Shown one piece after another: positions 6,367 through 14,375 of a stretch of 64,000 nt of DNA. A program made the position numbers and the translations under genes. Each line of letters begins with the position of its first letter. Position 1 is the first letter of the stretch. The DNA comes from Streptomyces sp. NBC_01454 (lineage in GTDB: Bacteria > Actinomycetota > Actinomycetes > Streptomycetales > Streptomycetaceae): NCBI RefSeq assembly GCF_036227565.1, contig NZ_CP109460.1:1240001-1304000 (forward strand), written 5' to 3'. A model generated the notes under the pieces. That model saw nothing but the letters and a program-made list of their open reading frames with translations. It had not been told where the DNA came from and did no database searches.

Positions 6367-6684
6367 CGGGGGCTGCCCGGCGCATTTCGGTGCCGGAGCG
6401 AACCAGTAGCCATTGCCGTCACGTCTCCCGTTCTACACCGCCAAGCTAAAACATCCTATTTCGGACACGCCGCAGCAGGCGACGCGCCCGATCGGGCCCG
6501 TATCGCCCGCTTGGGTGAGCACTGCCCGACATGTACCACTTGACGCTGTTCAGTACCCGTACAGCTTACGCCGTACGTCTCGCCCGCCTCCGCGGGGGTA
6601 CCCGTGCCCCCGCCCCTCTTCCGCTCAACATCCCGGCCATCCGAACTGTTCCCGATGCCCGGAGAGTTGACGATTCCTTCACAT
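6367..6684. other. Intergenic region upstream of hpnC
   Basis: About 320 bases between the hopanoid operon and the terminator of the exporter operon. It should hold the hopanoid promoter. On the minus strand TAGGAT (complement of about 6453-6458) resembles a -10 hexamer, but no good -35 lies at the right distance. A plus-strand reading frame beginning MYHLTLFS at 6531 has no ribosome site and no family resemblance. Confidence 0.4.
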
Positions 6685-6723
6685 CCGAAGGCCTCCGCGA
6701 GGCGGACTCGCGGAGGCCTTCGG
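6685..6723 (-). terminator. Strong hairpin terminator of the polymer/export operon
   Basis: A perfect 16-base-pair stem (6685-6700 with 6708-6723) around a 7-base loop, starting 14 bases after the stop codon of the exporter ATPase. No T-run is needed in this GC-rich context. It separates the export operon from the hopanoid operon. Confidence 0.85.
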
Positions 6724-6737
6724 GTGCGGGACGGGGG

Positions 6738-7541
6738 CTACTTGCCCGTCTCCTTCTCGTACGCCTTGATGACCTCGTCGGTGGGGCCGTCCATCAGCAG
6801 TTCGCCGCGCTCCAGCCACAGGACCCGGTCGCAGGTGTCGCGGATGGACTTGTTGTTGTGGCTGACCAGGAAGACGGTGCCGGCTTCCTTGCGCAGTTCG
6901 CGGATGCGGGCCTCGGAGCGCTTTTGGAAGCTGCGGTCGCCGGTGGCCAGGGCCTCGTCGATCATCAGCACGTCGTGGTCCTTGGCGGCGGCGATGGAGA
7001 ACCGCAGCCGGGCCGCCATGCCGGACGAATAGGTGCGCATCGGCAGCGAGATGAAGTCGCCCTTCTCGTTGATGCCGGAGAAGTCGACGATCCCGTCGTA
7101 GCGCTCGCGGACCTGCTCGCGGGACATGCCCATGGCCAGGCCGCCGAGCAGGACGTTCTTCTCGCCGGTCAGGTCGTTCATCAGCGCCGCGTTCACGCCC
7201 AGCAGGGAGGGCTGGCCGTGGGTGTAGACCTTGCCGCTCTCGGCGGGCAGCAGGCCGGCGACCGCCTTGAGCAGGGTGGACTTGCCCGAGCCGTTGGAGC
7301 CGATCAGGCCGATCGACTCGCCGCGGTAGGCGGTGAAGGACACACCCTTGACCGCGTGCACCTCCCGCACACCCGTGGAGGGCTTGCGGCGGATGATGCG
7401 GTTCAGCGCCGCGGTGGCGCTGCCCTTGCCGGCGCCCGTGCCGTAGACGCGGTAGACGATGTGCAGATCGTCCGCGATCACGGTGGGGATCCGCTCCCGC
7501 GCCGCCTCGGTCGGCTGGACGCCGTTGGTCTGCTCAGCCAC
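6738..7541 (-). CDS. ABC-2 polysaccharide/teichoic-acid-type exporter, ATP-binding subunit (Wzt/TagH-like)
   Basis: A 267-residue ATPase that would energise export of an undecaprenyl- or lipid-linked polymer. Walker A GSNGSGKST is at 81-89, the signature YSSGMAARL at 171-179, Walker B VLMIDE at 191-196 and the switch His at 228. The short signature without the usual LSGGQ, and the Gly-Val-Asn-Ala segment, are typical of the Wzt/TagH branch. It lacks the C-terminal carbohydrate-binding domain of some Wzt proteins. The GTG start overlaps the permease gene by eight bases; a longer reading frame upstream is only overlap. Confidence 0.9.
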   Translation of the reverse strand: MAEQTNGVQPTEAARERIPTVIADDLHIVYRVYGTGAGKGSATAALNRIIRRKPSTGVREVHAVKGVSFTAYRGESIGLIGSNGSGKSTLLKAVAGLLPAESGKVYTHGQPSLLGVNAALMNDLTGEKNVLLGGLAMGMSREQVRERYDGIVDFSGINEKGDFISLPMRTYSSGMAARLRFSIAAAKDHDVLMIDEALATGDRSFQKRSEARIRELRKEAGTVFLVSHNNKSIRDTCDRVLWLERGELLMDGPTDEVIKAYEKETGK

Positions 7542-8472
7542 GTCCGTACCGCTCCTCAGCCTTCCAGAAGTACACAAAGCCGGCCACGCCCGCGAGCAGC
7601 GCCCAGCCGATGGCGAACGCCCACACATGGTGCGGCAGCTGGTTCGCCTTGAAGGTGTCGATCAGCGCGAACCGCATCAGGTCGATGTAGACGACGGCCG
7701 GATTCCCGTTGAGGAGAACCTCCACGAACTTCGGGACGTCCTTGCCCTTGAGGATCACGCTGATGCTGAACATCACGCCGGAGGCGTACATCCAGGTCCG
7801 CATGATGAACGGCATCAGCTGCGCCAGGTCCGGGGTCTTCGCCCCCAGCCGCGCCATCACCATCGCCAGACCGGTGTTGAACACGAACTGCAGCGCCAGC
7901 GTCGGCAGGGCGAGCAGCCACGACCACGTCGGCACCTGCCCGAAGCCGAGCAGGATGATCACCAGCACGCCCATGGAGAACAGCAGCTGCTGCAGCTGCA
8001 TCAGGCAGAACGAGATCGGCAGACAGGCCCGCGGGAAGTGCAGCGCCCGCACCAGCCCCAGGCTGCCCGAGATCGCCCGGGTGCCGGCCATCACCGAGCT
8101 CTGGGTGAAGGTGAAGATGAAGACGCCGGTCACCAGGAACAGGACGTAGTTGGGAACGCCCCGGCTCGTGCCGATCAGCACACCGAAGATCAAGTAGTAG
8201 ACGCCCGCGTTGAGCAGCGGCGTCGCCACCTGCCAGACCTGGCCCAGCTTGGCCTGGCTGTACTGCGCCGTCAGCTTGGCGCTGGCGAAGGCGGAGATGA
8301 AATGCCGGCGGTGCCACAGCTGCCCGATGTACTCCAGGAGGCCCGGACGGGCGCCGCTCTGCGAGAGCCCGTACTTCTGGGCCCGCTGGGCAGGGGTGAG
8401 CCCCTCATCGGAAGATGGCGGGGCACTCATGGCGACCGCACTGTCGTGCGTGGTCTCGCTCACAGTTGACAC
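7534..8472 (-). CDS. ABC-2 polysaccharide/teichoic-acid-type exporter, permease subunit (Wzm/TagG-like)
   Basis: A 312-residue membrane protein with about six hydrophobic helices after a polar N-terminus of roughly 80 residues. It is the channel partner of the overlapping ATPase gene. The LWQVATPLLNAGVYYLIFG and LFLVTGVFIFTFT segments match ABC-2 transporters of O-antigen/teichoic acid type. The start is the GTG preceded by GAGGACG; a TTG four codons upstream (8484) and a GTG three codons downstream are alternatives. It is 70 bases after the glycosyltransferase stop and in the same operon. Confidence 0.88.
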   Translation of the reverse strand: MSTVSETTHDSAVAMSAPPSSDEGLTPAQRAQKYGLSQSGARPGLLEYIGQLWHRRHFISAFASAKLTAQYSQAKLGQVWQVATPLLNAGVYYLIFGVLIGTSRGVPNYVLFLVTGVFIFTFTQSSVMAGTRAISGSLGLVRALHFPRACLPISFCLMQLQQLLFSMGVLVIILLGFGQVPTWSWLLALPTLALQFVFNTGLAMVMARLGAKTPDLAQLMPFIMRTWMYASGVMFSISVILKGKDVPKFVEVLLNGNPAVVYIDLMRFALIDTFKANQLPHHVWAFAIGWALLAGVAGFVYFWKAEERYGRG

Positions 8473-8542
8473 TTTCGTCCTCAAGGTGCGCTGCCGGGGC
8501 CACGCCCCGGCTCGCGCCTGATGCTCTTCAGATACGAGCTTG

Positions 8543-9415
8543 TCAGATGACGGGAGGGCGGCCCAGTCGGGTCAGTCGCCAAACGGTAGCCCACTTCATG
8601 GGGCGCCTGGGACCGCACGGCGAGACCCAGCCCTCCTTGAAGCCGCCCAGCCAGGCCCGCAGCGCCGGCCGCGACGGCCGGCGGGCGAGGGTGAGCAGAA
8701 GCCAGACGCCGAGGTAGACCGGCACCAGCGGGGCGGGGAGGTTGCGGCGGGCCAGCCAGACGCGGTTGCGGGCCACCATGCGGTGGTAGACCGCGTGCCG
8801 GGCCGGGGCCGTCGTCGGGTGGAAGAGGACCATGTCCGACCGGTAGTCGATCTGCCACCCCGCGTCCAGGGCCCGCCAGGCGAGGTCCGTCTCCTCATGG
8901 GCGTAGAAGAAGTCGTCGGGCAGCCCGCCGACCTCCGCGAAGACCGCCGTACGGACCGCGTTCGCGCCACCGAGGAAGGTGGTCACCCGCGACGAGCGCA
9001 TCGGGTCGGCGGCGCGCAGCCGCGGGACGTGCCGGCGCTGGGTCTCGCCGGTGTCCGGGTCGGCGATCCGGAAGCTGATGATGCCCAGCCGGGGGTCCGC
9101 GGCGAAGGCCTGGCGGCACAGCTCGGCGGTGTCCTCGTGGGCCAGCAGTCCGTCGTCGTCGAGGAAGAGCAGCACATCGACATCGCGGCCGCCGGGCCCG
9201 AACGCCTCGATACCGGCATTGCGGCCGGCCGGGATGCCGACGTTCTCCGGCAGCTCGACGGTCCGTATGCCCTCGGGGAGCTCGGGCAGCGGCGAACCGT
9301 TGCCGACCACCGCGATCTCGACCCGGTCGCCGTCCTGCTTGGCGACCGAGTCCAGGAGGGCGCGCAGCTCCTCGGGGCGGTTGCCCATCGTGATGATGAC
9401 CGCGCCGACCTTCAT
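8543..9415 (-). CDS. Family 2 glycosyltransferase
   Basis: A 290-residue GT-A-fold inverting glycosyltransferase. The N-terminus MKVGAVIITMGNR begins the nucleotide-binding fold, the metal site is the Asp triplet at 86-88 (FLDDDG), and the acceptor-side EETDLAWR motif lies near residue 173. The C-terminal 70 residues contain a hydrophobic segment (VYLGVWLLLTLA) that could anchor it to the membrane. The start has a GAGGAGC site, eight bases after the upstream stop. The sugar donor and acceptor cannot be read from the sequence. Position between a CDP-alcohol transferase and the exporter suggests it decorates or extends the exported molecule. Confidence 0.88.
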   Translation of the reverse strand: MKVGAVIITMGNRPEELRALLDSVAKQDGDRVEIAVVGNGSPLPELPEGIRTVELPENVGIPAGRNAGIEAFGPGGRDVDVLLFLDDDGLLAHEDTAELCRQAFAADPRLGIISFRIADPDTGETQRRHVPRLRAADPMRSSRVTTFLGGANAVRTAVFAEVGGLPDDFFYAHEETDLAWRALDAGWQIDYRSDMVLFHPTTAPARHAVYHRMVARNRVWLARRNLPAPLVPVYLGVWLLLTLARRPSRPALRAWLGGFKEGWVSPCGPRRPMKWATVWRLTRLGRPPVI

Positions 9416-9423
9416 CGTGCTCC

Positions 9424-10203
9424 TCACTTCAGCCTGCTCGACGCCAGGATGGACACCAGGTGCAGCAGCGTCTGCAGGAGCGCGATGCCGGCCAGCACGG
9501 CGACACCGAGCCGGGAGAAGAACAGGTCGCCCCGGACCGTGTCCAGGACCGCCAGGACCAGGATCAGCAGGGAGGCCTCGACCCCGAGGACAAGGCGGTG
9601 GAACTTCAGCGCCGCGGCCGCCTTGCGGGCCAGCGCCATGCCGGACGAGCGCGGCTCGGACGCCGTCTCCTTGACCGGCGGCAGACCGCCCTGGTGACGG
9701 GCGACACCGACGAGGTCGGTCTCGGCCTTGATCAGGATGGCGCCGAGCGCGGCGAGCGTGCCGAGGAAGGCCCACAGCCAGTCGACCCGCCCCGCGCCCC
9801 ACAGGTCGGCAGCGCGCAGGCCGAAGCCGACCAGCACCGCGGCGTCGCACAGGTAGGCGCCGACCCGGTCCAGGTACACCCCGCCCAGGGAGAACTGCTT
9901 CTTCCAGCGGGCGACCTCGCCGTCGACGCAGTCGAGCAGCAGATAGAGCTGGACCATCAGCACGCCGAGCAGTGCCCCCGCGATCCCCGGCACCAGAAGG
10001 GCCGGAGCGGCGAGGACGCCGGCGACGGTCATCACGTAGGTCAGCTGGTTGGGCGTGATCCGCGTGTTCACCAGGTGGCGGTCGATGCGCAGCGAGAGCT
10101 CGCGCATGTAGAGCCGGCCGGCCCAGTGCTCGCCGCTCCGCCGGTCCTTCACCCCCGGAGGGTGAACGACCGGGCGGAGCTCAGCTACCGATGGCTTCTG
10201 CAT
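9424..10203 (-). CDS. CDP-alcohol phosphatidyltransferase-family membrane protein with altered motif
   Basis: A 259-residue integral membrane protein with the CDP-OH-P-transferase signature: Asp91, Asp94-Gly95, Ala98-Arg99, Gly108 and Asp112. The fourth aspartate, expected at residue 116, is Ala; the nearest Asp is 120. Family members transfer a phospho-alcohol from CDP-alcohol to a hydroxyl acceptor or the reverse. About five further hydrophobic segments follow. The ATG start at 10203 overlaps the preceding dehydrogenase gene by 23 bases. It may act with the dehydrogenase and nucleotidylyltransferase upstream; its substrate is unknown. Confidence 0.82.
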   Translation of the reverse strand: MQKPSVAELRPVVHPPGVKDRRSGEHWAGRLYMRELSLRIDRHLVNTRITPNQLTYVMTVAGVLAAPALLVPGIAGALLGVLMVQLYLLLDCVDGEVARWKKQFSLGGVYLDRVGAYLCDAAVLVGFGLRAADLWGAGRVDWLWAFLGTLAALGAILIKAETDLVGVARHQGGLPPVKETASEPRSSGMALARKAAAALKFHRLVLGVEASLLILVLAVLDTVRGDLFFSRLGVAVLAGIALLQTLLHLVSILASSRLK

Positions 10204-11242
10204 AGTCGGCGTAAGCGTCCCTGATCTGGTCGGTGGACAGGTCGAGGTGCTCCAGGATGGTGTAGCGCCCGGGGCGGGTCTTGGGTGCGTACTCGACGAC
10301 CTGGACGAATTCCTCGTCGGTGAAGCCGATCTCACCCGGCGTGACCGGCAGGCCGTGCCGGCGCAGCACCTGGACCATCAGGTCACGGGTCTCCTTGTCC
10401 CCGCGCAGATGCGTGGCGAACGCGGCGCCCAGGCCGCACTGCTCGCCGTGGCTCGCGGCGCGCTTGGGGAAGAGGAGGTCGAAGGCGTGGTTGATCTCGT
10501 GGCAGGCGCCGGAGGCCGGACGGCTGTCGCCCGCGACCGACATCGAGATGCCGGTCAGGACCAGGCCCTCGGCCAGCACCTGGAGGAACTTGTCGTCGCC
10601 GACACCTCCGGGGTGACGCAGCACGGCCTCGCCGGCCTGGCGGGCCATGGCGGCGGCCAGTCCGTCGAGGTCCTCGCCGGTCTCGCGGTGGGCGAGCTCC
10701 CAGTCCGCGACCGCGGAGATGTTGGAGATCGCGTCGCCGATACCGGAGCGGACGAACCGGACCGGGGCCTCACGGATGATGTCGAGGTCGATCACCACGG
10801 CGATCGGGTTCGGCACCCCGTAGGAGCCGCGGCCGGCGTCGTTGTCGAGGGTGGCGACCGGCGAGCACAGGCCGTCGTGCGACAGGTTCGTCGCGACGGC
10901 GACCAGCGGCAGGCCGATGCGCGCCGCGGCGAACTTGGCACAGTCGATGATCTTGCCGCCGCCCAGGCCCACGACGGCGTCGTAGTGCCCCTTCTTCATG
11001 GCGTCGGCAAGCTTGATCGCGTCGTCCAGGGTGCCGCCGTCGACCTCGTACCACTCGGCGCCCGGCAGCGCGGGCGACAGCCGCTCCCGCAGCCGGGCCC
11101 CCGAGCCGCCGCTGATCGCGATGGCGAGCTTGCCGGACGCGGAGATGCGCTGATCGGCCAGCAGGCCCGCCAGGTCGTCCAGGGCGCCGGCGTTGATGTC
11201 GACGACGACCGGGGACGGAATGAGGCGGGTCAGTACTGGCAT
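10181..11242 (-). CDS. Iron/zinc-dependent dehydrogenase of the glycerol-1-phosphate dehydrogenase (EgsA/AraM) type
   Basis: A 353-residue GldA/DHQS-fold enzyme. The NAD(P)H site is Gly94-Gly-Gly96. Metal ligands expected from the family are present at Asp170 (SGIGD), His248 (ACHE) and His265 (SHGEQ), and SHDG at 121-124 contacts substrate. The best-known reaction of this subfamily is DHAP to sn-glycerol-1-phosphate. It overlaps the nucleotidylyltransferase gene by 13 bases, suggesting its product is activated by that enzyme. Other polyol phosphates are possible, so the substrate is inferred rather than shown. Confidence 0.85.
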   Translation of the reverse strand: MPVLTRLIPSPVVVDINAGALDDLAGLLADQRISASGKLAIAISGGSGARLRERLSPALPGAEWYEVDGGTLDDAIKLADAMKKGHYDAVVGLGGGKIIDCAKFAAARIGLPLVAVATNLSHDGLCSPVATLDNDAGRGSYGVPNPIAVVIDLDIIREAPVRFVRSGIGDAISNISAVADWELAHRETGEDLDGLAAAMARQAGEAVLRHPGGVGDDKFLQVLAEGLVLTGISMSVAGDSRPASGACHEINHAFDLLFPKRAASHGEQCGLGAAFATHLRGDKETRDLMVQVLRRHGLPVTPGEIGFTDEEFVQVVEYAPKTRPGRYTILEHLDLSTDQIRDAYADYAEAIGS

Positions 11243-11967
11243 GCGATGTCACGGCCCTTCGCCAGGTCGTCGTGGTTGTCGATCTCGACCCACTTGATGT
11301 CGCCGATCGGCGCCACGTCCACCTTGAAGCCGCGGTTGACGAGCTCCTGGTAGCCGTCCTCGTAGTAGAGGTCGGGGTCCCGCTCGAAGGTGGTCTTCAG
11401 GGCGTCGGCCAGCTCGTCGGCGGCCTCGCCCTCGATGAGGGTGACACCGATGTACTCGCCGGTCGCCTCGGCCGGGTCCATCAGCTTGGTGATCTTCTGG
11501 ACGCCCTTGGCGGGGTCCACGACGACCTTCATCTCCTCGTCGGCCAGCTGCTTGACCGTGTCGAGGGCGAGGATGATCTTCTGGCCGTTGCCGCGGGCGG
11601 CGAGCAGGGTCTTCTCGACGGAGACCGGGTGCACGGTGTCGCCGTTGGCGAGGATCACGGTGTGCTTGAGGGAGTCACGGCCGCACCACAGGGAGTAGGC
11701 GTTGTTCCACTCCTCGGCCTTGTCGTTGTCGATGAGGGTGAGCTTGAGGCCGTACTTCTGCTCCAGGGCGGCCTTGCGCTCGTAGACGGCTTCCTTGCGG
11801 TAGCCGACGATGATGGCGACCTCGGTCAGGCCGATCTCGGCGAAGTTGCCGAGGGTCAGGTCGAGGATGGTCGTGTCCCCATCGACCGGCACCAGAGCCT
11901 TGGGCAGGGTGTCGGTGTAGGGGCGCAGACGCCGTCCGGCGCCGGCAGCCAGCACGAGGCCGATCAT
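11230..11967 (-). CDS. Sugar/alcohol-phosphate nucleotidylyltransferase
   Basis: A 245-residue GT-A-like nucleotidyltransferase. GAGRR at 9-13, PK at 22-23 and the metal-binding Asp110 (LANGD) match NTP-transferases such as the CTP-using LicC/TarI-like and sugar-1-phosphate enzymes. It lacks the C-terminal hexapeptide-repeat domain of GlmU-like proteins. The ATG overlaps the upstream stop codon (ATGA). Flanked by two CDP-alcohol transferases, it is most simply a CTP:alcohol-phosphate cytidylyltransferase, but CTP specificity is not visible in the sequence. Confidence 0.85.
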   Translation of the reverse strand: MIGLVLAAGAGRRLRPYTDTLPKALVPVDGDTTILDLTLGNFAEIGLTEVAIIVGYRKEAVYERKAALEQKYGLKLTLIDNDKAEEWNNAYSLWCGRDSLKHTVILANGDTVHPVSVEKTLLAARGNGQKIILALDTVKQLADEEMKVVVDPAKGVQKITKLMDPAEATGEYIGVTLIEGEAADELADALKTTFERDPDLYYEDGYQELVNRGFKVDVAPIGDIKWVEIDNHDDLAKGRDIACQY

Positions 11968-13817
11968 GCGGGTTCTCCTTCATCGTGTACGGCGGGTGCT
12001 TGGGAGGACACCCAGAAACGGATGCTCTCGACGAGCACCAGCAGCGCCAGGACCACGGCAAGGGCCGTGAGCGCGATTGTGAAACCTTCAGGGGACAGCG
12101 CGGCCGCGAGGACGGTGACCACAAGGACGCGTCCCTCGTGCCCGCCGGTTGCCCGGACCAGCCACCGCGGCGGGGCCCCGGTGCCACCGCGGATGCGGTA
12201 GACGGTGTCGTAGTGATGGTAGGCGACCGCCGCGACCAGCCCGTACGCCGCGGGCAGCGCCCCGGGGACGTCCGAGCGGGCGGCCAGCACCAGGATCGTG
12301 ACGTATTCGCCGGCCCGGAAGAAGGGCGGCACCAGCCAGTCGAGGGCGCCCTTGAGCGGGCGGGACACCGCCGCACCGGCCAGCAGTGCGGAGCAGACGG
12401 CGACACCGACGGTGAGCCAGGACGTGGGGTCGTCCTGGAAGAGCACCCAGACCAGCAGCACGGCGGCTGAGAGAAATGCCATGACGGGGGCCAGGAAGGA
12501 ACCGGTGCGGCCGCGGCCGCGGGCCCCGGCGGCGATCAGCTCGGCCAGTGGTCCGGAGTCGGCGAGGTCGGCCAGCGCCCGGGCGGCGCGGTCGGTGCGC
12601 CGGGCTGGGGGTCCCCCCGGCGTTAGCCGGGGGAGGGTCAGCGAGCGCAGCACCCGGCCCGCCGTGGTGTAGCAGGCGGCCAGCGCACAGCCGATGAGCA
12701 GGGCGTAGAAGACGATGCGCGGGGTGGTGAGGGCGGTGAGCACCGCGATCATGGCCCAGCGCTCGCCGATCGGCAGCACGATCATGCGCCGCACCCAGAC
12801 CGTCCAGCCGACGCTGTCGAGCTTGTCGGAGAGCGCCGCGGTCGGGCTCGTATTGGCGCTCGCACCCGTTGCATCGTGATTCGCCTCGTTGAAGGAGAAG
12901 TCGACGACATGGCGGCAGGTCTGCAGCACCATCGCGCCGAGCGCCAGCGCCCAGACGTCGTCCCCTCCCCCACTGCCGCTCGCGGCCGATGCCCCCAGGG
13001 CCAGGCCCGCGTAGTACGCGTACTCCTTGGCCCGGTCGAAGGTGGCGTCCAGCCAGGCACCCATCGTCGAGTACTGCAGGGAGTAGCGGGCGAGCTGCCC
13101 GTCGGTGCAGTCCAGGACGAAGGAGAAGAGCAGCAGCAGGCCGGCGGCGACGAAGCCGCCGCGGGTTCCGGTGGCCGCGCAGCCGGCCGCGATCAGCGCG
13201 GTGAGCAGGGACGCGGTGGTGACCTGGTTGGGGGTGAGCCCGCGCCGGGCGCACCAGCGGGCGAGGTAGCGGGAGTACGGGCTGATGCAGTGGGTGGTGA
13301 AGAACCCGTCGCGGGACTTCACGGCGGTGCGCAGCCGGACCGCCTCGTCGTCGACGGCGGCGACGGCTTCCCGCGCCTCCTCGCGCCGGGCGGGGGTGAG
13401 CGCGACGGTGGCGACCAGGCTGCCCAGCTCGACGCGGTGCAGGCCGGCGCCGTCGCGGTCGAGGGCCTCGGTGAGGGTGTCGGTGAGGACGTCCGTGAGG
13501 TGGGCGGTGCCGGCGCCGACCGGGATCCGGCCGACGGCCCGGGCCAGCGCGCCGCGGGCCCCGGGCTGCACGGTGAGCGCGCCCGGCACGGCCGCGGCCG
13601 GGAAGCGGGGGTCGGTCAGCGCCAGCCGCAGGGCGTGCAGATGGCCGACGAAACGGGGGTCGACGACGGCGACCCGCTCCTGTGCGGGCACCGCGGCGAT
13701 CAGCTCGCCGGCGGCAGCGGGATCGTTCGCCGTGCGGACGTCAAAACCCAGCGTGCGCAGGTCGGCTTCGAGCGGCGACCCGGCGACCGGCGGACCGGTG
13801 AGGATGGCGGTCGACAG
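11964..13817 (-). CDS. DUF5941/CDP-alcohol phosphatidyltransferase multidomain membrane protein (probable CTG start)
   Basis: A 617-residue protein. Residues 1 to about 160 form a soluble domain, the complete CDP-OH-P-transferase motif (DxxDGxxAR, Gly, Asp, Asp) spans 236-261, and a C-terminal half with five or six hydrophobic segments matches the DUF5941 type. Homologues as I remember them begin (M)STAILTGPP, and that peptide is present here only if translation starts at CTG 13817-13815. AAGGAG lies nine bases upstream and an in-frame TGA lies just before, so no ATG/GTG can produce it. The first GTG is at 13691 and would lose 42 residues. It is the first gene of the operon. Confidence 0.82.
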   Translation of the reverse strand: MSTAILTGPPVAGSPLEADLRTLGFDVRTANDPAAAGELIAAVPAQERVAVVDPRFVGHLHALRLALTDPRFPAAAVPGALTVQPGARGALARAVGRIPVGAGTAHLTDVLTDTLTEALDRDGAGLHRVELGSLVATVALTPARREEAREAVAAVDDEAVRLRTAVKSRDGFFTTHCISPYSRYLARWCARRGLTPNQVTTASLLTALIAAGCAATGTRGGFVAAGLLLLFSFVLDCTDGQLARYSLQYSTMGAWLDATFDRAKEYAYYAGLALGASAASGSGGGDDVWALALGAMVLQTCRHVVDFSFNEANHDATGASANTSPTAALSDKLDSVGWTVWVRRMIVLPIGERWAMIAVLTALTTPRIVFYALLIGCALAACYTTAGRVLRSLTLPRLTPGGPPARRTDRAARALADLADSGPLAELIAAGARGRGRTGSFLAPVMAFLSAAVLLVWVLFQDDPTSWLTVGVAVCSALLAGAAVSRPLKGALDWLVPPFFRAGEYVTILVLAARSDVPGALPAAYGLVAAVAYHHYDTVYRIRGGTGAPPRWLVRATGGHEGRVLVVTVLAAALSPEGFTIALTALAVVLALLVLVESIRFWVSSQAPAVHDEGEPA

Positions 13818-14375
13818 ACGAACTCACTCCTTGGAAGCTGACAAGGCAGCACGGGCGGTCCGCAGTCGATTCCGCATTCGACACGAGCTACCCGGGCAGC
13901 GGGCGTGGCACACCTCGCCCCCGGAGGGGTGGGGTGGCACGTCGGCAGAGGTTATCGGATCGCCGGATGCGGCCGTTCACCGCGCATTCACCGCACGATC
14001 GAGTGACCGACGGCTGCGCCTGCCGCGATCATCATGGTGGATCGGGCGGCGCATGAACAACTGCGCTGCGCCCCCGGTGGCCGCCCCGGTGCCCCTTATG
14101 AGAGGGCTGGTCACGAGGCGGGCGGGTTGTGCCGGGGCAGGTGTGGTGCGCGCCATCCCGCATCCGGCGGGCGGTGGCCGCGCGCCGCTGCCACCGACCG
14201 GGCGGCCGCGATCTCGGCGCCGGGGGCACCGCACGGGGCGGCCGATGTGGCCCCTCTCACGGCGGGCGCACTCCCGGTCCGGCGCGCTGGCATGTGGCGC
14301 CGCGCACCCGCTGTGCCGCTGATGCGGACCTGGCTAGGGCAGACTTGGCGTCGAAGACCGACGACAAGGATGGGC
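13818..14375. other. Divergent intergenic region between the polymer operon and idi
   Basis: About 560 bases with no convincing gene. It holds the start region of two divergent units, the ribosome site at 13827-13832 and a PHO-box-like direct repeat at 13975-13996. Reading frames that cross it lack starts with ribosome sites and family resemblance. Confidence 0.5.
13975..13996. promoter_or_regulatory. PHO-box-like direct repeat (candidate PhoP site)
   Basis: Two direct repeats spaced exactly 11 bases: GTTCACC at 13975 and ATTCACC at 13986. The first matches the Streptomyces PhoP direct-repeat core GTTCACC fully and the second in six of seven positions. It lies 158 bases upstream of the polyol-phosphate operon start and about 380 bases upstream of idi. 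This is a pattern match only; no binding is shown. Confidence 0.4.

Follow-up and report, generated by a model that had tools for sequence, protein, structure and literature searches.

Introduction

Among the closest described systems to the locus studied here is the wall teichoic acid pathway of Bacillus subtilis (TagD-TagB/TagF-TagGH), whose tag genes are under the control of PhoP. In this study, we have explored a seven-gene operon (genes A to G) of Streptomyces sp. NBC_01454, which lies in a 64,000-nucleotide stretch of contig NZ_CP109460.1 (C1, positions 1,240,001 to 1,304,000; hereafter, the window) within a genome of 9.46 Mb and runs on the minus strand from 13817 down to 6738, with idi upstream of A. 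Two other described systems are relevant to it. Lipoteichoic acid (LTA) of the LtaS type is polymerised extracellularly from phosphatidylglycerol, and stereospecific digestion with GlpQ distinguishes the two enantiomers of glycerol phosphate (PMC7086022). AraM of B. subtilis feeds an archaea-type ether lipid (PMC5059525, PMC8262930), and a Streptomyces homologue of glycerol-1-phosphate dehydrogenase (G1PDH) was included in an alignment and tree study (PMC5059525). In the available portions of the literature searched, we found no proposal that these genes supply cytidine diphosphate (CDP)-sn-1-glycerol or CDP-glycerol in Actinobacteria, the nearest statement being an annotation-level listing from 2026 of the region as syntenic and teichoic-acid-associated, with tagG, tagH and araM (PMC13118837).

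Based on our results, we propose, with a probability of roughly 0.58, that the operon is a teichoic-acid-type module in which B and C make CDP-glycerol from sn-glycerol-1-phosphate in place of TagD. The enzyme activities, the glycerol stereochemistry, the acceptor, the polymer and the regulation are what we infer from gene content, gene order, motifs, modelled folds, distribution, neighbours, the lack of above-cut-off TagD in relatives and conserved PHO-box-like repeats. Gene C would convert dihydroxyacetone phosphate (DHAP) to sn-glycerol-1-phosphate, which B would combine with cytidine triphosphate (CTP) to give CDP-sn-1-glycerol; A, a membrane transferase with D as a possible partner, would pass glycerol phosphate to a lipid-linked acceptor; E would add sugar; and F-G, of the TagGH type, would export the lipid-linked product, whose final place would be the wall or the membrane. 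B-C could likewise replace TagD in supplying CDP-glycerol to TagF-like polymerases whose genes lie outside the operon, at other places in the genome. The path from DHAP through glycerol-1-phosphate, activation by CTP, transfer and glycosylation to export, as sketched in the initial annotation of this DNA, fits the protein families and the comparative context. That annotation could not name the product; we can narrow it to a teichoic-acid type because of the paralogy of the exporter, the TagF-like and LCP neighbours in relatives, and the PHO-box-like sites. Of the two guesses then offered, a phosphopolyol wall polymer is better than an unusual glycolipid.

Results

Comparisons were made across a 147-genome sample of the order, a 296-genome sample of the phylum, 21 relatives, and a scan of named genomes that covered the best 80 of 581 confirmed loci with flanks of at most 10 kb on each side (26 of the 80 loci being shorter than 20 kb). 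These 80 loci come from Micromonospora, Actinoplanes, Streptosporangium, Microbispora, Nocardiopsis, Kineosporia, Embleya, Nitriliruptorales, Thermoleophilia and others. Protein families were assigned with Pfam and NCBIfam models, and none of the best NCBIfam models of the operon scored over its cut-off. Gene C (10181..11242, minus strand, 353 aa; Pfam Fe-ADH_2) is closer to the NCBIfam model for G1PDH (240.7 bits) than to those for glycerol dehydrogenase (90.2 bits) or dehydroquinate synthase (18.9 bits). Among its solved relatives, the best two (E ~3e-43) carry the label glycerol-1-phosphate dehydrogenase and the third, 3ce9, that of glycerol dehydrogenase. In gene C the GD..SN, H...H and HGEQ positions, which we take to include metal ligands, align with EgsA/AraM relatives. 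Gene B (11230..11967, minus strand, 245 aa) has the signature of LicC/PntC/IPCT-type NTP transferases (GxGxR..PK plus NNxYSL), with GxGxR..PK at residue 9 and NNAYSL at residue 88. CTP:phosphocholine cytidylyltransferase is its best solved relative (E 3.2e-14), 4jd0 and 6pd1 (a PntC fusion) match as well, and we regard B as a putative CTP:sn-glycerol-1-phosphate cytidylyltransferase. The two genes form a unit: in 77 of the 80 named loci C is immediately preceded by B, and in 70 a gene for a CDP-alcohol phosphotransferase (CDP-OH_P) follows directly downstream. Five Streptomyces loci (L067, L068, L070, L071 and L073) hold a second copy of C, accompanied by a whole B in L068 and by two separate B pieces in L073. 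From gene sizes these copies had been suspected to be part of natural-product clusters, a reading rejected on the genes around the L068 copy: by Pfam it sits between RNase E/G and the ribosomal L21/L27 genes, with Obg also nearby, and the surroundings in L067, L070, L071 and L073 are similar by the sizes of their open reading frames.

No PF04464 (TagB/TagF) transferase is present among the seven genes, and the genome encodes four elsewhere; with neither TagD nor TagF inside it, simple identity with a classical wall teichoic acid operon is ruled out. PF04464 (TagF-like) matches were found in 17 of the 21 relatives, 15 of them at E<=1e-94, and the TagD model TIGR01518 exceeded its cut-off in 0/21, the best match of the own genome reaching 68.6 against 165.4 bits. 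This match is a protein of 154 aa (L091:6256-6720, C1 ~387 kb), which adjoins another CDP-OH_P gene. In three Streptomyces genomes (G297, G299 and G303), TagF-like genes occur without any TagD match at E<=0.001 and without a strong second IspD/TarI-like match. Across the phylum sample TagD passes its cut-off in 8/296 genomes (72 with weaker matches included), and the 20 genomes with PF04464 at E<=1e-40 divide into 12 with C (E<=1e-45), four with TagD over cut-off, four with neither and none with both (association of C with TagF, Fisher p 2e-8). Such genes also occur side by side. In the two sister-family loci covered by this check (L063 and L064, with L065 and L066 outside it), a PF04464 gene adjoins A in L063, and a GT2-TagF-like gene, a GT4 and an epimerase surround A-G in L064. 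The distant genome G121 carries GDPD, TagF-like, B and C genes in a row; in G204, A neighbours a GT2-TagF gene together with an F-G-like pair, B-C lying at another place; and in G108 the module genes are scattered over a polymer locus that also holds PF02397 and several glycosyltransferases, with PF04464 matching weakly beside B and more strongly (E 4.8e-24) at another point of the same contig. LCP ligases are near in 20/80 named loci, and two are also found in L034, upstream of A in G183.

The exporter likewise points to a teichoic-acid-type product. Gene F (7534..8472, minus strand, 312 aa, with its start at 8484 or 8472) encodes an ABC-2 permease of TagG/TarG-like type, whose best solved matches are 9cfp/9cfl, labelled "Transport permease protein" in entries that also contain TagH (E 1e-9), and TarG 6jbh_C (E 4.9e-8). 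Gene G (6738..7541, minus strand, 267 aa) encodes an ABC ATPase whose best NCBIfam model is TagH and whose solved relative is TagH 7dd0_A (E 2.3e-53); because it scores 175.4 bits against the curated equivalog cut-off of 320 we call it TagH-like. Together, F-G are an ABC-2 permease and ATPase closest to TagGH/TarGH. The same genome has a second G (96%) and a second F (82%) near C1:5.09 Mb, where a GT2-TagF gene lies at a distance of about 1 kb. In the order sample F is found at E<=1e-40 in 135/147 genomes, mostly in two copies, and among the 40 second copies listed a PF04464 gene lies within 20 kb on the same contig for 33, and within 5 kb for 23; the other seven could not be paired with such a gene from the listed matches.

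AraM-like genes are common in Actinobacteria. Gene C is present at E<=1e-40 in 136 of the 147 genomes of the order sample (132/132 of the same genus, 4/14 of the sister family f72 and 0/1 of f71), and in the phylum sample at E<=0.001 in 135/296, many of these being distant dehydrogenases, and at E<=1e-45 in 32/296. The genes follow one another as A-G on a single strand in the window and in 12/12 further complete Streptomyces loci. The sister family retains B-G in 4/4 loci, of which 3/4 also carry A upstream on that strand. A different architecture, found mainly in Micromonosporaceae (L101-L172), places another CDP-OH_P gene after B-C in 41/80 named loci, its L032 copy retaining the fourth Asp of the motif, and a PF02397-type sugar-phosphate transferase match lies about 4-7 kb beyond B-C in 31/80. 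That B-C with one CDP-OH_P gene make up the minimal unit in many Micromonosporaceae loci and in L032 would suit a small phospholipid, glycolipid or soluble phosphodiester as the product (phosphatidylglycerol via CDP-glycerol, or a glycerophosphoinositol-like compound) with no wall polymer at all, as would the resemblance of A and D to inositol-phosphate CDP-alcohol transferases; we think this very unlikely, as it leaves unexplained the TagGH-type exporter and, in relatives, the nearby LCP ligases and the TagF-like and PF02397 genes.

This survey of the gene set across actinomycetes, which the initial annotation had called for, thus finds B-C recurring widely and the hopanoid neighbourhood confined to Streptomyces. 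There, hpnC and hpnD follow the operon in 12/12 other complete loci, which speaks for a hopanoid-linked function. Outside the genus, neither gene was detected (E<=1e-10) within the fetched flanks of the 80/80 named loci or in the 4/4 sister-family loci, and the operon has a terminator of its own. A tie to the hopanoid genes is therefore not supported, and a function of this kind, rejected on distribution, is in our view extremely improbable.

Two genes of the operon, A and D, are CDP-alcohol-transferase-like. Gene A (11964..13817, minus strand, 617 aa, CTG start) comprises an N-terminal cytidylyltransferase-like domain (residues ~1-159) that lacks the NTase signature, a CDP-OH_P domain, and a C-terminal DUF5941 (the last two from Pfam). 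Its D..DG..AR...G...D...D motif is complete, starting at residue 236, and D..DG..AR is present in 7/8 slices of A from relatives and the window, being absent from the L037 slice. DUF5941 occurs in 13/296 genomes of the phylum sample, and no mention of the term was found in the literature searched. Gene D (9424..10203, minus strand, 259 aa) is a divergent CDP-OH_P transferase in which Ala replaces the fourth Asp of the motif, this position being Ala in seven and His in four of 11 rows of D compared; it may be non-catalytic or use another base. Its structure model is nearest to AF2299. Searches with the D and B proteins returned near-identical sequences, mostly from Streptomyces, in the best 120 rows, with no distant relatives among them; both are at least 90% identical to many Streptomyces proteins. 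Eight places in the genome were found with PF01066, A and D being two of them.

The modelled fold of A appears to resemble choline/ethanolamine phosphotransferases, with 10-12% sequence identity to CHPT1/CEPT1; the likeness was drawn from the folds listed by VIA-align, and the C-terminal part alone is barely covered. Since these enzymes act on diacylglycerol, the model lends itself to an LtaS-independent synthesis of LTA, in which A would load sn-glycerol-1-phosphate on (glyco)diacylglycerol, the chain would be extended in the cytoplasm to a lipid-anchored polyglycerolphosphate, E would glycosylate it and F-G would export it. LTA has been isolated from S. hygroscopicus and S. coelicolor, and the LTA enantiomer of B. 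subtilis is sn-glycerol-1-phosphate (PMC3196553, PMC7086022). We nevertheless consider LTA an unlikely product. The model of A was built from an alignment of 10 sequences, and its mean predicted local distance difference test (pLDDT) score was 74.8 in the best case and 49-57 in the four others; the paralogue of F-G belongs to a TagF cluster; the neighbourhood repeatedly includes LCP ligases, by which polymers are attached to the wall; and no macroamphiphile was detected in S. verticillus (PMC3196553), yet C is universal in the same-genus genomes sampled.

Upstream of A, between idi and A, the window contains a PHO-box-like direct repeat, GTTCACCGCGC-ATTCACCGCAC (13975..13996, plus strand), and such repeats are found in the same orientation in 13/13 Streptomyces loci. 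In all 13, the best two-unit match within 420 nt upstream of A has the same strand and falls between -126 and -179, although L069 and L072 each have another site that scores equally; in 10 of the 13 its score is reached by at most 4% of simple shuffles. Among three sister-family loci a comparable site stands at about -70 in L065 and L066, with none in L064. In S. coelicolor the numbers SCO6750 and SCO6751 belong to idi and zitB, and SCO6759-71 to the hopanoid cluster, a numbering that leaves SCO6752-6758 for seven genes; from this count we infer that SCO6752-6758 correspond to A-G, which would place SCO6753 in the operon. SCO6753 has been described as a PhoP target with a PHO box, its expression being altered in a phoP mutant (PMC4173021). 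Taken together, the operon is probably under phosphate control, as far as sequence and this correspondence allow.

The layout is as first annotated, with seven overlapping or close genes on the minus strand: with the chosen starts, A/B overlap by 4 nt, B/C by 13, C/D by 23 and F/G by 8, and gaps of 8 nt (D-E), 70 nt (E-F) and 371 nt (G-hpnC) separate the others. The families assigned at that time were correct in kind by Pfam and NCBIfam, the "ABC-2 exporter" being two genes, the permease F and the ATPase G; the remaining gene, E (8543..9415, minus strand, 290 aa), encodes a GT2 glycosyltransferase. The frame of A opens at a CTG (13815-13817) behind AGGAG, the first ATG, GTG or TTG coming only at 13691. 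The earlier placing of its end at 13817 is well supported, since the start codon is CTG or TTG in 13/13 Streptomyces loci (seven, including the window, and six, respectively), so that a rare start codon behind an AGGAG/GGGAG-type site is conserved across these loci. The single terminator also stands, as a strong hairpin on the minus strand (6682..6726) with 20-nt arms at 6682-6701 and 6707-6726 and no T-run (-44.9 kcal/mol on strand folding, z = -8.97 against 200 shuffles). A consensus promoter/terminator scan gave no promoter and did not pick up this hairpin. Between G and hpnC there is a second match to GTTCA-N6-GTTCA with one mismatch (6548-6563), at chance level. On the other side, four of the five Streptomyces idi-A gaps read by eye (those of L049, L057, L058 and L060) contain a GalE-like epimerase frame; Pfam Epimerase genes stand next to B in L064 and close to B-C in L068, and none was seen in the idi-A gap of the window.

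Discussion

Several observations weigh against a teichoic-acid-type module fed by B-C. Regarding the substrates, B falls under every NCBIfam cut-off (the top model, UTP-glucose-1-phosphate uridylyltransferase, gives 64.2 against 400 bits), so that its family does not in itself establish CTP and glycerol phosphate as its substrates, and C falls under the curated G1PDH cut-off NF002022 (240.7 against 413 bits), which is why we name it G1PDH-like only. These same scores, and the varied small phosphates on which the solved relatives of B act, leave room for C to reduce another phosphorylated ketone and for B to activate that polyol phosphate, with a product other than glycerol phosphate. We judge such a substrate to be decidedly unlikely, given the G1PDH labels of the two best solved relatives of C and the company that B-C keep, in several lineages, with genes of PF04464, the CDP-glycerol:poly(glycerophosphate) transferase family. 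Within the operon, D is without the fourth Asp of its motif.

Regarding the teichoic acid link, the other points concern TagD, TagF and phosphate control. Sub-cut-off TagD-like matches exist in 9/21 relatives, including the 154-aa CTP_transf_like protein of the own genome (68.6 bits), and a strong second IspD-like match, a possible source of CDP-ribitol, is present in 7/13 Streptomyces, the own genome being without it. With Streptomyces counted once the link between C and TagF becomes modest (4/12 versus 20/276, Fisher p 0.012). In four of the TagF genomes both C and a TagD match over cut-off are missing (G085 with a TagD-like match of 132.5 bits, G257 with one of 59.7), and G328 (81% complete) has TagF without C. 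Conversely, C is found without PF04464 at E<=1e-40 in 11/132 same-genus genomes and without strong PF04464 in 20/32 C-bearing genomes of the phylum sample, which means that TagF is not the sole customer and that the module also occurs without it; only 1/80 named loci, from Embleya, shows a TagF-like match (E<=1e-10). As for the PHO boxes, the score is reached by 24-27% of shuffles in 3/13 loci, and over the whole window GTTCA-N6-GTTCA with one mismatch gives two matches where 0.90 are expected, a number reached by 26/100 shuffles and not significant.

If the proposal of a teichoic-acid-type module holds, it would explain the origin of the glycerol-phosphate building block of wall polymers in such bacteria, and it offers a candidate answer to two questions: where Streptomyces with TagF-like genes and no TagD over cut-off obtain CDP-glycerol, and, as posed in PMC3196553, how polyglycerolphosphate is made in Actinobacteria without a clear LtaS. 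One of the major bacterial phyla would then routinely build with sn-glycerol-1-phosphate, usually named as the mark of archaeal lipids. A broader version, which we put forward tentatively and consider less likely than not, is that in Streptomyces and many other Actinobacteria both the wall polymers and the lipid-linked polymers of glycerol phosphate are built from CDP-sn-1-glycerol, by means of an archaeal-type dehydrogenase and a LicC-type cytidylyltransferase. If this were true, the teichoic acids that these bacteria make in the cytoplasm would mirror classical wall teichoic acid and have the stereochemistry of LtaS-made LTA, and the missing TagD and the missing LtaS would both be accounted for.

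Importantly, there are clear similarities and differences between the known systems and this operon. With B. subtilis wall teichoic acid it would share a cytoplasmic CDP-activated glycerol phosphate, and it has in common a TagGH-type ABC-2 exporter and, in view of the PhoP control of the tag genes, PHO-box-like sites upstream. Unlike that system, it has neither TagD nor TagF, and instead carries a G1PDH-like enzyme, a LicC-type nucleotidylyltransferase and two CDP-OH_P-type proteins, with the opposite glycerol stereochemistry predicted. LTA of the LtaS type would be built of the same sn-glycerol-1-phosphate units, but LtaS polymerises outside the cell from phosphatidylglycerol (PMC7086022), whereas here CDP-glycerol is predicted to be made in the cytoplasm. 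Gene C belongs to the same sequence family as AraM/EgsA; what sets it apart from AraM of B. subtilis is the nucleotidylyltransferase and the wall-polymer genes that accompany it. IPCT-DIPPS and AF2299 of Archaeoglobus likewise combine a cytidylyltransferase-like domain with a CDP-OH_P membrane transferase; in our operon, however, B is separate, the corresponding domain of A is without the NTase signature, and an exporter, a GT2 and DUF5941 are added. Finally, in comparison with CHPT1/CEPT1, gene A is bacterial, shares 10-12% identity with them, and has CDP-glycerol as its predicted donor.

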